Part shown: positions 3,764 to 27,837 of the stretch, in pieces
Numbering within the stretch: the stretch's first letter is position 1
Layout: the number at the start of each line of letters is the position of its first letter
Source: a virus
Virus record (IMG/VR): IMGVR_UViG_3300037502_001855
Location: 1-29,234 of that record
Reading direction: 5' to 3' (one strand)
DNA: 29,234 bases
The notes under the pieces: generated by a model
Told to the model about the DNA's origin: nothing
Database searches by the model: none
Seen by the model: the letters and a program-made list of their open reading frames with translations, nothing else
Translations under genes and position numbers: made by a program

Positions 3764-4360
3764 ATGGCCGAAGAACACGACGAAGCACCGCCGGAGCACT
3801 GGCGCACGATCACCCCGGAGGCGAGCTGGCGAGAGCTCTCCGGCGCGCGGGCGAAGCTGGCTGCCGAGCGGGCGACCGCGAAGCAGGCCGCCGCGCGTGT
3901 CTCCGAGCTTGAAGCCCTGTTAGCCGAGGTCGAGCCGAAGCTCTCGAAAGTCCAAGAACTCGAAACCACGACGGCGCGTCTCCAGTCGCGACTGTCCATG
4001 TCCCGGCTCGGGATCGTCGATGACGAGGTCGCCGAGATCGCAGAACAGCGATTCGCCCGGTATCAGGCCACGGCCGGGAAGGAGGCGAAGGCGCTCGATG
4101 CGTGGCTGGCCGAAGAGGGCAAGTCGGACCGCATCCTATCGCCGCTTCTCCAACCGGCCTCGACTGCGACGCCGGCGGCCGCGCCGCTCCCTCCCGTGCC
4201 GGTAGTCCCGCAGCCAACCGCGCCGCAGCGCACGGCCGGGACGACCGCCGATGAGATCGCGCGCATCCGAGCGGCGAACAATGGCCGGATCCCGCGCGAG
4301 ATTCAGAAGGAACTCGGCACCCGAATCGCGATCGGCGACTTGCTCGGGCCTCGGCGATGA
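3764..4360 (+). CDS. Probable capsid scaffolding protein
   Basis: A 198-residue protein immediately before the major capsid gene. Residues about 25-85 are an Ala, Glu, Lys and Leu-rich helix with heptad-like spacing, as in a coiled coil. A second helical part (85-128) is followed by a Pro/Ala linker (about 132-160, PAAAPLPPVPVVP) and a basic helical C-terminus (ARIRAANNGRIPREIQKELG). Coiled coil, linker and basic tail is the usual plan of scaffolds that bind capsid subunits through a basic C-terminal helix. The protease needed in some HK97-type systems is not recognised nearby, so this scaffold may act uncleaved. A CCGGAGG lies 6 bases before the ATG. Confidence 0.72.
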   Translation: MAEEHDEAPPEHWRTITPEASWRELSGARAKLAAERATAKQAAARVSELEALLAEVEPKLSKVQELETTTARLQSRLSMSRLGIVDDEVAEIAEQRFARYQATAGKEAKALDAWLAEEGKSDRILSPLLQPASTATPAAAPLPPVPVVPQPTAPQRTAGTTADEIARIRAANNGRIPREIQKELGTRIAIGDLLGPRR

Positions 4361-4401
4361 GGTAGCCTGACAGAAAGCAACGACCGTCGCTCCCGAGCTG
4401 C

Positions 4402-4475
4402 GTTACCGCTCGCGTATCAGGTCTGACACAGTCAACCGCGCGCCCCTCGGGGTGCGGATACGCGAGGGCCGTAAC
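4402..4475 (+). promoter_or_regulatory. Three-way-junction RNA leader of the major capsid gene
   Basis: The last 74 bases before the capsid ATG fold almost completely. Stem A is 10 uninterrupted pairs, 4409-4418 (CTCGCGTATC) with 4457-4466 (GATACGCGAG). It encloses hairpin B, 4420-4422 plus 4424-4427 with 4431-4437 (7 pairs, bulged C4423, loop ACA), and hairpin C, 4439-4445 with 4450-4456 (7 pairs with one G-U, loop CTCG). The junction has only one, one and zero unpaired bases. An outer helix pairs GTTAC 4402-4406 with GTAAC 4471-4475, which touches the start codon. The capsid ribosome binding site (GAGGG 4464-4468) lies partly in stem A, so folding should limit initiation. The regulatory role is inferred. 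Confidence 0.65.
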
Positions 4476-5420
4476 ATGGCGAATGAAGTAACTAATAGCT
4501 CCTTCGTGACGAATGGCGGTCGCACCGCCGAAATCCTTGCTGGCATCGTTCAGGAGGCTCTGTACGATCCGACCGACGTGCGCGCGACTGCGCTCTTCGT
4601 TCCTTGGGTTGCAGCCGGTAGCGCGACTCTCGAGGCGCTCGTTGACGCGGCGCCCGGTCCCGCCGCTGCCGATTCGAGCGAGATCGCGTCGGGCGCCTCG
4701 AACTCGGCCTACACCACCGCTGGCAAGCAGATCACCGTCGCGGGCTACACCCGGCAATACCAGATCAGCGACCTCTTCGGGGTAACCGCCGGCGCCGGTC
4801 AGGTGGACGCGAGCCGGGTCGCGATGAAGCTGGAACGGGCCCTGACGCTCACGCTTACTGACTTGATCACGGCGTTGTATGGGTCTTTCGCCAACTCGGT
4901 CGGGACCAGCGGCGTCAACTTGTCGACCTCCGACATGTATGCCGCAATGTACCAGTTGATCAACTCGAACGTTCCTTTCGGCCCGACCTCGCCGGTCTTC
5001 GCCGTGCTTCACCCGCAGCAGTTCGTGGACTTCATGAGCTCGCTCCGTGGCGAGACCGGCTCGGACGCCCTGCAGGCGGATACCGCGTCGCAGCTTCGCT
5101 TCTCGGGTCCGGGCTTCAAGGGTAGCTGGAAGGGCGTTCAGATCTTCACCTCGGATTCGGTGGCGACCGCGAACGGCGGCGCGGACCGTGCCGGCGCGAT
5201 GTACGGCCTCGGCGCCATCGCCTACACCCTCGGCGATGTCCGCCCGCTTGTCGGCCTGCACATCCCGGCCGAGGATGCACTCATGGTTACGCCCGAGATG
5301 ATCATCGAACGCCGTCGCGCGGCCGTCTCCGATCCGCTCTCGACCCTCGTGGCGCATATGTTCCCGGGCGTCGTGGAACTGGAAGACCTGCGCGGCGTCG
5401 GCATCGTCACGGACGCCTAG
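4476..5420 (+). CDS. Major capsid protein
   Basis: A 314-residue HK97-fold-type capsid subunit, inferred from position after the scaffold and from its pattern. The N-terminal arm (ANEVTNSSFVTNGG) is followed by an alpha/beta core with ITVAGYTRQYQISDLFG (about 88-104), the helix ERALTLTLTDLITALYGSF, a Pro-containing VLHPQQFVDFMSSLR segment typical of the A-domain, and late strands (AIAYTLGDVRPLVG, RRRAAVSDPLSTLVAHMFPGV). The ATG at 4476 is preferred to the in-frame GTG at 4452, which lies inside the leader stem-loop; GAGGG stands 8 bases upstream. Codons are clean and GC-rich, as expected for a strongly expressed gene. Confidence 0.88.
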   Translation: MANEVTNSSFVTNGGRTAEILAGIVQEALYDPTDVRATALFVPWVAAGSATLEALVDAAPGPAAADSSEIASGASNSAYTTAGKQITVAGYTRQYQISDLFGVTAGAGQVDASRVAMKLERALTLTLTDLITALYGSFANSVGTSGVNLSTSDMYAAMYQLINSNVPFGPTSPVFAVLHPQQFVDFMSSLRGETGSDALQADTASQLRFSGPGFKGSWKGVQIFTSDSVATANGGADRAGAMYGLGAIAYTLGDVRPLVGLHIPAEDALMVTPEMIIERRRAAVSDPLSTLVAHMFPGVVELEDLRGVGIVTDA

Positions 5421-5433
5421 TATCGGGTTGCGG

Positions 5434-5469
5434 GGTCGCGGTGGCCGGTCGCTCTCCGGTGCCGCGACC
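5434..5469 (+). terminator. Long hairpin after the capsid gene (terminator or attenuator)
   Basis: GGTCGCGG 5434-5441 pairs perfectly with CCGCGACC 5462-5469. Inside, CCGG 5445-5448 pairs with CCGG 5456-5459 around a 7-base loop. It stands 13 bases after the capsid stop. There is no good T-tract downstream, so it may be an attenuator or an mRNA-stabilising hairpin rather than a classic intrinsic terminator. Either would help set capsid level above that of downstream genes. Confidence 0.5.
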
Positions 5470-5486
5470 TTCGCGATCCCGCACCT

Positions 5487-5517
5487 TTGACCGACAACAA
5501 CCGGAGAACCGAAACCC
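5487..5517 (+). repeat. Dispersed TTGACC...AACCGGAG leader motif, copy 2
   Basis: TTGACCGACAACAACCGGAG followed by AACCGAAACCC ends exactly at the ATG at 5518. Compared with the copy before 9115 it shares TTGACC, ACAACCGGAGA and CCGAAAC. CCGGAG is the ribosome binding site. Confidence 0.65.
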
Positions 5518-6306
5518 ATGGCGACACCACAGCCGCTCCCCGCACCACAAGCCTACCGTCAAAGCGAGGTCGATCACAGCGACCGCCTTTCGCAGATGCG
5601 GCAGGTTCACCCCCGCTATGTCTACGCGCATCACTGGCAGGCGTGGGCCTACACCGAGGTCAACGACGCGGGCAAGGTCGTTCCCGGCGAGGATCTCGGG
5701 CGCGGCCTCGGGCGTGGTGAATGGGTTCCGGTTCTTCACAAGATCTACATTCGCAAGGGACTAAGCGGCGCATCGACTGACGCCGACGTCGAAGCCCCGA
5801 TCGCGAACGCCATCCGAAAGGGCGCGACCGTCATCCGTCCCGGCGACGCCCGGCTCGGCGCGTGGGCGGACTATCTTCGGATCTACCGCGATGTTTCCGG
5901 TTCCATCCACTACGTGGAGCAGACCGAACAGGCCGTCAGGCTTCCATCGGGCGAGACGGTACTTCGCCCGAACGAGCAGAAGTATCACGCATTCGTGACC
6001 CATGTTCGCGACGCCGGGATCGTGGACCCGATGTCGCCGATCGCCTATGAGGCGATCCGGACGAAGGCCGAGGCCGAGATCGAGTACCTGCGAGAGGCCG
6101 CGACCCGCACCGGGACCAGCCCGCAGCTTGAGCGGAAGACCCGGATCCTCGCGGCGATGGACGCGGCATGGCAAGCGGAACAGGAACGACAGGCCGGTCT
6201 CGCCGGTCCGGCCGTGGAGCTTGAGGTCGAGGTCATCGACGCGCCAGCGGCCGAACTCACCGCCGCCGAGGCCGCGCTGGCGCGCTCGAAGCGAGGGCGG
6301 AAGTGA
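5518..6306 (+). CDS. Unknown protein of the head gene cluster
   Basis: A 262-residue hydrophilic protein between the major capsid gene and the neck genes. The first part has a Pro/Gln-rich start and the aromatic stretch HPRYVYAHHWQAWAYTEV (about 31-48). The second half is helical and rich in Ala, Arg and Glu (about 180-225), followed by an acidic stretch and a basic tail (RSKRGRK). I recognise no family. Position and composition suggest a virion or head-assembly protein, inferred only. The leader carries a copy of a motif also found before 3764 and 9115. The TGA stop overlaps the next gene's GTG. Confidence 0.65.
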   Translation: MATPQPLPAPQAYRQSEVDHSDRLSQMRQVHPRYVYAHHWQAWAYTEVNDAGKVVPGEDLGRGLGRGEWVPVLHKIYIRKGLSGASTDADVEAPIANAIRKGATVIRPGDARLGAWADYLRIYRDVSGSIHYVEQTEQAVRLPSGETVLRPNEQKYHAFVTHVRDAGIVDPMSPIAYEAIRTKAEAEIEYLREAATRTGTSPQLERKTRILAAMDAAWQAEQERQAGLAGPAVELEVEVIDAPAAELTAAEAALARSKRGRK

Positions 6307-26328: not shown

Positions 26329-27837
26329 ATGGAACTAGCACCGGGCGACGTGGCTCTCGCAGCCGCGCGCCGACTCGCAGAGGCGATCCGAGTGCCGGGC
26401 GCCGACTACACCGCCGCCGTCCGCGCATTCCTCGCCGCTCCGGGCGTCGCCGAGGACCTCGAGTACCTCGGCGAGCGTAAGGGGTGGCGAGAACTCTCCG
26501 CCGAGCTGCGACTCGTGCCTATCGTTTGGCGGGCGTTATCACCGCTGGTCCGACCACGTCGCACGTCAGAGGATCGGGCGGCGCGCATCGAGATCCAGAT
26601 CGAGCGGGCGATCGCACCAAATGCCATCGGCGAGGGGCCGGTGGTGAGTATGATGCAGCGCGGTCGACCCCGCGAAGACGGGTCCGCGCAACTATCAAGA
26701 AATCCTTTCAACTTGGGAATCATCCTGACGCATGACTCGCGCTGGAAGGGGAGGATCCGGCTCAACGAGTTCAGGGCCGACGAGGAGATCCTAGACTGCG
26801 GCCGGTGGCGCGGCCTAACCGACGTGGACGCGATCAAGGTTCAGCGCTGGGTCTCAGCGGAATATCGCCTCGACTACCAGACGGCGACGGTTCATGAGCA
26901 GCTCATCGGAGTGGCGCACGAACATCGCCGGCACCCGGTCAGGGACTACCTCCAATCGCTGCTCTGGGACGGCACGAAGCGCATGGACTCGTGGCTCGGC
27001 GACGTGTTCGGCGTCGAGCCGACCGTCGGAGCACATCGCGTCGGGCGGGCGTGGCTTATCTCGATGGTCGCGCGCATCATGTCGCCCGGATGCAAGGTCG
27101 ACACCGTCCCGATCCTCATCGGGAAACAGGGGCTCCGGAAGTCGACGACGCTGCGGGCGATGATGCCGGACGCGGCGTGGTTCAGCGACAGCGACATCCC
27201 GCTCCACCACAGTCAGGACAAGTATCAGGTGATCCAAGGCGTCTGGTTGTACGAGATCGCCGAGTTCGACCGGTTCACCTCGAAGGCCGACGCCGCCGAG
27301 GTCAAAGCCTACGTCTCGAGTCAGCGCGACACGTTCCGGCGCTCGCATGGTCGACGGGTGGCGAGCGTTGATCGCCAAGTCGTGTTCGCGGGGAGCACGA
27401 ACGCCGCCGAGTTCCTCGTCGATGCGACGGGTAGCCGGCGGTACTGGCCTCTCGTCTGTGCGAAGGCCGACCCCGATGTGATGCGCGAGCTGCGTGACCA
27501 GCTCTGGGCCGAAGCGGTCGCGGCCTATGAGTCGGGGGAGTCGTGGTGGTTATCGTCCGACGTCGCCGCCGAGGTTGCCGAGATGGCCGACGAGTTCCGG
27601 GTCGGCGACCCATGGGATGAACCGTTAGCCGCTTGGCTCGCCGAGCAAACCGCGACCGCCCGGATGTCGGGGTTGATCATGGCCGACATCCTCGCGAACG
27701 CGGTCGGGACTCCGATCGGGGTGGCGACGAAGCGCGAACAGGGGCGGGCGGGCGCCATTATGGTGCGGCTCGGGTGGGTGAAGAAGAAGAGGAAACACGA
27801 CGTCCGGTGGTTCCCGCCGGCGGGTGGACACCTATGA
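26329..27837 (+). CDS. VapE/D5-type replicative helicase (primase-helicase family)
   Basis: A 502-residue SF3-like ATPase of the virulence-associated E family, expected to open and unwind the phage origin. Visible motifs: NPFNLGIILTHD (125-136), RHPVRDYLQSLLWDG (201-215) that opens the VapE domain, Walker A GKQGLRKST (265-273), Walker B VWLYEIAEFD (305-314), sensor GSTN (355-358) and GSRRYWPL (368-375), the typical arginine region. The N-terminal 120 residues do not show a clear primase zinc finger, so priming ability is uncertain. GAGGAG is 5 bases from ATG 26329 but can be masked by the leader. The iteron array follows its stop. Confidence 0.88.
   Translation: MELAPGDVALAAARRLAEAIRVPGADYTAAVRAFLAAPGVAEDLEYLGERKGWRELSAELRLVPIVWRALSPLVRPRRTSEDRAARIEIQIERAIAPNAIGEGPVVSMMQRGRPREDGSAQLSRNPFNLGIILTHDSRWKGRIRLNEFRADEEILDCGRWRGLTDVDAIKVQRWVSAEYRLDYQTATVHEQLIGVAHEHRRHPVRDYLQSLLWDGTKRMDSWLGDVFGVEPTVGAHRVGRAWLISMVARIMSPGCKVDTVPILIGKQGLRKSTTLRAMMPDAAWFSDSDIPLHHSQDKYQVIQGVWLYEIAEFDRFTSKADAAEVKAYVSSQRDTFRRSHGRRVASVDRQVVFAGSTNAAEFLVDATGSRRYWPLVCAKADPDVMRELRDQLWAEAVAAYESGESWWLSSDVAAEVAEMADEFRVGDPWDEPLAAWLAEQTATARMSGLIMADILANAVGTPIGVATKREQGRAGAIMVRLGWVKKKRKHDVRWFPPAGGHL

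Follow-up and report, generated by a model that had tools for sequence, protein, structure and literature searches.

The major capsid gene of this virus is preceded by a 115-nt gap in which a strongly paired RNA reaches up to the start codon, raising the question of what such a structure contributes to capsid synthesis. The window, meaning the whole stretch of DNA analyzed, is a virus record of 29,234 bases; its relevant features are listed in Table 1 together with comparable elements of other phages. A preliminary description had read a three-way junction from the letters, and its stem coordinates, its 10-pair stem A and its junction bases (A4419, G4438, then none) agree with the predicted fold. 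The minimum-energy fold of the element (4402-4475, 74 nt) reproduces the described structure and adds a single C-G pair within the outer helix; it reaches -41.0 kcal/mol and occupies 66% of the ensemble, against -25.6 ± 3.3 kcal/mol for shuffled sequences (z = -4.70, 0/200 as stable). The two hairpins described as having 7 pairs are both present, with the corrections that the first contains a bulged C and that one pair of the second is G-U. No pseudoknot is seen in the window fold, for which the prediction was nested only. Folding the wider segment 4390-4490 still separates it from shuffles (z = -3.24, 2/200). When the whole predicted 5′ untranslated region is folded, z is only -1.97 in the window and -0.85 to -1.28 in relatives, which counts against a translational reading; the fall from -4.7 to -1.97 indicates that the fold signal is local to the element. 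A conserved, unusually stable RNA fold directly 5′ of the major capsid start is confirmed.

Table 1. Features of the capsid locus in the window and class-a elements preceding scaffold-position genes in other phages.
Feature	Position	Strand	Remark
Putative capsid assembly scaffold, 198-aa ORF	3764..4360	+	Assigned from position
-35-like hexamer TTGCTC	4340..4345	+	17 bases before TAGCCT
-10-like hexamer TAGCCT	4363..4368	+	Predicted transcript start about 4375
Predicted 5′ untranslated leader of capsid mRNA	4375..4475	+	Predicted start to capsid ATG
Outer helix, 5′ strand GTTAC	4402-4406	+	Pairs with 4471-4475 in the window fold
Stem A, 5′ strand CTCGCGTATC	4409-4418	+	10 perfect pairs with 4457-4466
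Hairpin 1	4420-4437	+	7 pairs, one bulged C (GGU-C-UGAC/GUCA-ACC)
Hairpin 2	4439-4456	+	7 pairs, one of them G-U; tetraloop CUCG
Stem A, 3′ strand GATACGCGAG	4457-4466	+	Last three bases shared with the Shine-Dalgarno sequence
Likely Shine-Dalgarno GAGGG	4464-4468	+	From sequence; GAGG retained in L018-L020; half inside stem A
Outer helix, 3′ strand GTAAC	4471-4475	+	Adjoins the capsid ATG
Major capsid protein, 314 aa (P0001)	4476..5420	+	HK97-fold model match, PHROG match
Terminator-like hairpin without a good U run	5424..5481	+	-44 kcal/mol, z = -2.44
Class-a RNA before scaffold-position gene	L153:2708-2746	-	Other capsid family
Class-a RNA before scaffold-position gene	L155:1247-1285	-	Other capsid family
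Class-a RNA before scaffold-position gene	L129:5732-5770	+	Other capsid family

The identity of the downstream gene, proposed earlier as the major capsid gene, is upheld by HK97-fold matches in the PDB and by the head-protein PHROG matches of its relatives. The window ORF itself matches a PHROG major head protein weakly (E = 0.0015), the relative L015 does so at 4.4e-7, and the relatives share ∼26% identity with annotated capsids. An AlphaFold2 model of modest confidence (mean pLDDT 58) retrieves the capsids of NF5, N4, Che8 and T7 as well as encapsulins in Foldseek with a probability of 1.00 (best E = 1.7e-7) and TM-scores of about 0.3, so that the product is predicted to adopt the HK97 fold. 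The ORF upstream of the gap has no Pfam or PHROG match; it is a putative capsid assembly scaffold on the basis of position, since the gene order is that of phages DSL-LC06 and HTVC112P, in which the gene before the related capsid is annotated as a scaffold. Elsewhere in the window, positions 26329-27837 encode a VapE-like (PF05272) domain protein (E = 1.6e-70), likely a replication primase/helicase.

The most plausible reading of the gap is a weak sigma70-like promoter followed by a 5′ untranslated region of ∼100 nt. The promoter-like pair TTGCTC-N17-TAGCCT is weak, with only 6/12 matches to a sigma70-like consensus, and this counts against the transcript model; relatives carry TTGACR-N17-TANNNT at the same place, and a TTG..TA...T promoter with at least 8/12 matches occurs in 18 of 50 non-redundant upstream regions of relatives, where shuffles lead one to expect 0.9. 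Hairpins similar to the one beyond the capsid stop codon lie 3′ of the gene in most relatives, many with T runs. With a promoter-like pair, a 5′ untranslated region and a strong hairpin after the stop, the capsid gene looks like a transcription unit of its own, with structured RNA at both ends.

The claim that the fold buries the ribosome binding site is borne out computationally: half of the Shine-Dalgarno sequence lies in stem A, and the mean unpaired probability is 0.17 for its GAGG (range 0.08-0.23) and 0.12 for the AUG. Opening the capsid start region would cost 20.6 kcal/mol, the third highest value among 31 candidate starts in the window, compared with 6.8 kcal/mol for the scaffold-like ORF upstream and 9.4 kcal/mol for the next gene. 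The other candidates in the top four are doubtful starts; computed burial is common in this GC-rich window, where several other (doubtful) starts are equally costly, and this counts against a translational reading. Two more distant relatives, L021 and L027 (67% and 41% capsid identity), possess unrelated, branched leaders (z = -4.25 and -3.86) whose closing helix pairs GCCAU with AUGGC and thereby covers the AUG. An upstream in-frame GTG at 4452 was rejected as an alternative start; it is missing in L019 and L020.

Only three close relatives were found (L018, L019 and L020), with capsid identities of 95, 94 and 90%. Across the element they are 93, 89 and 70% identical to the window, and across the first 300 capsid coding bases 82, 82 and 80%, so that in L018 and L019 the element is better conserved than the coding sequence. 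Stem A is invariant in all four sequences and is therefore uninformative for covariation. In L020, hairpin 2 shows one two-sided substitution (C-G to A-U) and a G-U to G-C change, while hairpin 1 has a different sequence that still folds; in L019, hairpin 1 has gained an inserted compensating pair (UGAC/GUCA to UGAAC/GUUCA). The loop of hairpin 2 is UUCG in L018 and L019 rather than the CUCG of the window. The outer GTTAC/GTAAC helix, which had been described as part of the structure, forms in the window fold but is not conserved: all three relatives have a C.A mismatch, and L020 has a second one. Because the hairpin changes mostly keep pairing and the outer helix is mismatched, the core junction is supported and the outer helix is not. 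The expected covariation is therefore present in part (one two-sided pair, one G-U to G-C change and one inserted pair), and support within the window's own group of four sequences is limited. Indels of 1 and 2 bases in the leader make a coding role unlikely on either strand, and an antisense ORF across the leader (3810-5519), considered and rejected, is not open in L018-L020. In IMG/VR, the exact 17-base stem sequence occurs in the contigs of these three relatives and in three chance matches inside coding sequence. The phage collection, searched by DNA and by capsid protein, yielded no close cultured relative; of two genome contig scans, the first gave no match and the second three MAG contigs.

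Comparison with catalogued RNAs returned no match. Rfam 15 gives no gathering match in the window. Relaxing the cutoff to E = 5 for 4340-4520, to E = 2 for 16 relatives and to E = 1 for L129, L153, L155, L113 and L104 also brought up no match. The absence of hammerhead and tRNA features noted in the preliminary description is in line with these searches: no covariance model of the self-cleaving ribozymes in Rfam matches the window, 4340-4520 or the relatives searched, and ARAGORN finds no tRNA or tmRNA. The literature within reach contains nothing on the element.

The wider capsid family, represented by 60 viral loci from a profile scan, places this leader in context. A gap of 75-127 bases before the capsid gene is retained in most relatives, and a structured leader by nearly all full-length ones (33-95% protein identity); the distant cultured capsids of DSL-LC06 and HTVC112P have no such leader, with gaps of 29 and 15 bases. 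Structured leaders at the capsid start are the rule in this family, a regularity that points to a role in capsid expression. Most members carry a different RNA, here named class a. It is defined by a variable, covarying outer helix (P0) around GGGUCGCACCCGUNAACAGCG, with a possible pseudoknot; inside P0 lies a hairpin, GGG-UCGCN-CCC, followed by GUNAACAGCG. The corresponding class-a model (R1) takes as its criterion a P0 helix around GGG-UCGCN-CCC and NAACAGCG. The phage records behind 18 loci were searched, and the class-a phages among them have one strong class-a place each, besides a tandem case and weak chance matches.

The pairing of class a is well marked. Complementarity of the two P0 strands scores 13.9 versus 8.1 ± 0.8 for mismatched partners. 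In the model-based alignment, 8/8 helix pairs show two-sided changes and covariation is 0.436 versus 0.159 ± 0.024 for shuffled alignments (0/500 shuffles); an alignment of 48 distinct sequences that also covers the pseudoknot gives 0.314 versus 0.125 ± 0.015. These alignments were fitted to the structure and so favor it, yet P0 had been recognized in the raw sequence beforehand, and the signal drops sharply in slid controls. The CGC/GCG pseudoknot is 91% paired and nearly invariant; its single two-sided change lies in L113, where two tandem class-a copies precede one capsid gene (L113:3082-3170) and copy 1 combines a UGGCA loop with AGCC, so the pseudoknot is suggestive only. A second tandem pair before one capsid gene is found at L104:1339-1434, on the same contig as L053. 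Class a also contains strictly conserved unpaired bases, and this core is at most compatible with riboswitch-type binding of a small molecule.

In most class-a leaders the outer helix stops short of the Shine-Dalgarno sequence, which counts against a translational reading. Pairing of the core with the leader's own Shine-Dalgarno sequence was rejected as a general switch: the signal is weak, at -11.4 versus -10.3 ± 0.4 kcal/mol (9/2000 shuffles, these not being GC-matched). The class-a 3′ strand pairs more strongly with a downstream segment before the Shine-Dalgarno sequence, at -11.25 versus -7.50 ± 0.56 (0/5000 shuffles; 2/5000 when GC-matched). This pairing is absent in short leaders and is thus not a defining part of the class.

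Class a also reaches beyond this capsid family. The pattern GGTTCGCAACCGTNANCAGC, the AACC form of the core, occurs in 35 IMG/VR contigs, in every case 33-79 bases before an ORF; 32 of these precede capsids of the family, and the other three precede the gene before the capsid (Table 1). In L155 the gene following class a is a scaffold (phrog_194, 1e-44) and the capsid belongs to phrog_247; the capsid of L129 belongs to phrog_1328; in L153 both genes lack a PHROG match, and their scaffold and capsid roles are assigned from gene order. P0 contains the Shine-Dalgarno sequence in L153 (CUCCU/AGGAG) and in L155 (UCCUAU/AUAGGA). The pattern of the other main class-a form is found in 38 contigs, of which about half have it before capsids; in most of the others it lies within coding sequence. 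In the cultured Stenotrophomonas phage BUCT702, a class-a-like stretch (L164:586-612) lies 12 bases before the annotated scaffold gene; its hairpin departs from the class-a form and it receives no score from model R1, so it is a lead only. Further class-a-like stretches with a deviating hairpin part occur directly before scaffold or scaffold-like genes in L173 and at L172:8167-8186. Class a has no match in plasmids, nor in 299 bacterial genomes at E = 1e-4 in a search run without a positive control.

The window RNA does not belong to class a by sequence. Model R1 reaches at best 4.8 bits on the window leader (E = 0.22 in 221 bases, unfiltered), while true members score 15-47 bits, and the P0 helix with the class-a core is lacking; homology to class a is accordingly unsupported. 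The best partial alignment matches only GUCAACCGCG at 4431-4440, in hairpin 1 and its flank, which resembles the class-a strand GUCAACAGCG and is too short to tell a relic from chance. The window RNA does lie in the leader of a capsid gene, where class a is found in leaders of capsid or scaffold genes, and it occupies the homologous place of a homologous capsid gene, which makes it a positional counterpart of class a and not a sequence member. In the capsid tree, class-a rows surround one clade of 12 with a support of 100/100. This clade holds the window, L021, L023, L027 and a group termed class b (L022-L035), all with other leaders; the class-a-like L079 is its sister, but on a long branch. 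Class b leaders (e.g., L025:1932-1979) are defined by GAGC...GCUC around ACCCGG and by a covarying hairpin with the conserved loop CCGUCA, with two-sided changes at 3 pairs; they could form a CGG/CCG pseudoknot. The plain reading of this distribution would be one loss of class a with several structured leaders in its stead, or else divergence beyond recognition.

Control of translation in cis is the best supported function, given that the window fold ends on the Shine-Dalgarno sequence, that the AUG is covered in related leaders, and that P0 takes in the Shine-Dalgarno sequence in part of class a. From the predicted fold and its conservation, it appears somewhat probable that the element is a cis-acting structured 5′ leader controlling the start of capsid translation. 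RNA polymerase with a sigma70-like factor would start at about 4375; the RNA is predicted to fold into the three-way junction, with the closing stem ending on the Shine-Dalgarno sequence and a start region that is costly to open by computation. The ribosome would then load only when the stem opens, whether through the folding equilibrium, kinetically before folding is complete, or by means of a factor. The hairpin after the capsid gene would end the transcript, and the leader would set the amount or timing of the capsid protein, the most abundant protein of the virion. The window clade may have swapped an older, widespread class a for another leader at the same spot, probably to the same end.

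A rather unlikely alternative is that the fold and the 3′ hairpin armor an abundant, long-lived capsid mRNA against nucleases, in which case shape and not sequence would matter. The leader does begin near the predicted transcript start, a strong hairpin stands at the other end of the message, and sequence and even architecture have been swapped within the clade with a stable fold retained; this reading nevertheless leaves unexplained both the stem that covers the Shine-Dalgarno sequence and the strictly conserved unpaired bases of class a. A feedback operator, with capsid translation shut off once surplus capsid or scaffold protein occupies the leader, would suit both a leader placed between the scaffold-position and capsid genes and the presence of class a before scaffold genes of other phages. 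It is nonetheless improbable: the same class-a core is used with capsid and scaffold proteins of different PHROG families, while in the window clade a related capsid protein goes with other RNAs. The occurrence of class a before scaffold genes of phages with capsids of other PHROG families makes a capsid or scaffold protein less likely as the class-a ligand, and a host factor or small molecule would fit better.

Two further readings have still less in their favor. The position just 3′ of a promoter and 5′ of a terminator-like hairpin would be that of an RNA of the HK022 put type, which makes RNA polymerase resistant to termination so that it can pass hairpins; such a transcription-level role is very improbable, as the element sits on the Shine-Dalgarno sequence of scaffold genes in L153 and L155 and as a role of this kind would leave the terminator-like hairpin that directly follows the capsid gene without a purpose. 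Absence of any regulatory role, through a chance fold of a GC-rich spacer or a site acting at the DNA level, would agree with a GC-rich background that raises folding energies and with the modest z-scores of whole leaders. The z of -4.7 for the element, its compensating changes, its higher conservation than coding sequence in two relatives and its fixed orientation and position across the family make this very improbable.

Returning to translational control in cis, a broader and tentative proposal, possible though by no means probable, is that class a represents an undescribed cis-regulatory RNA common to tailed phages with different capsid families, which may act as a sensor of a host factor or small molecule and so gate capsid and scaffold synthesis; the window junction would then be one of several lineage-specific replacements.

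Known systems offer partial parallels. Autogenous repression is known for phage coat proteins and for the T4 gene 32 protein, which stop translation of their own messages, the ompA leader is a 5′ structure that protects its mRNA from nucleases, and the pseudoknot in the T4 gene 32 leader is thought to control translation. Like the latter, the window RNA is a leader structure of a phage mRNA before a highly expressed structural or stoichiometric protein; unlike it, it is a three-way junction closing on the Shine-Dalgarno sequence and precedes a capsid gene, not a gene for an ssDNA-binding protein. The coat-protein operators of MS2 and Q-beta are likewise RNA structures at a start codon in a phage genome, but belong to RNA phages, act on the replicase gene and consist of a single hairpin with a known coat-protein ligand. 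Riboswitches of the preQ1 and SAM-II type, with a pseudoknot beside the Shine-Dalgarno sequence, resemble class a in small size, a conserved unpaired core and a variable covarying helix, which in class a sometimes contains the Shine-Dalgarno sequence; the tandem copies of L113 and L104 are a further likeness. Class a differs in having no Rfam match and in being found before capsid and scaffold genes only, and the window RNA lacks the class-a core. Leaders of ribosomal protein S15 share a three-way junction by the start codon and the use of unrelated folds in different lineages, but the window gene does not encode a ribosomal protein and its leader has no Rfam match.

The capsid protein is made in the largest amount, and the ratio of capsid to scaffold decides head assembly; to our knowledge, control of capsid synthesis at the RNA level is little described in tailed DNA phages. 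If the present reading is true, capsid synthesis in a large group of environmental phages has a dedicated RNA control element of its own, from an apparently uncatalogued class that Rfam 15 does not contain and that turns up repeatedly across different capsid families. As an element of 37-45 nt, class a is directly testable for a ligand, and the locus would provide a case in which a single ancestral leader RNA gave way, at an unchanged position, to several unrelated folds.
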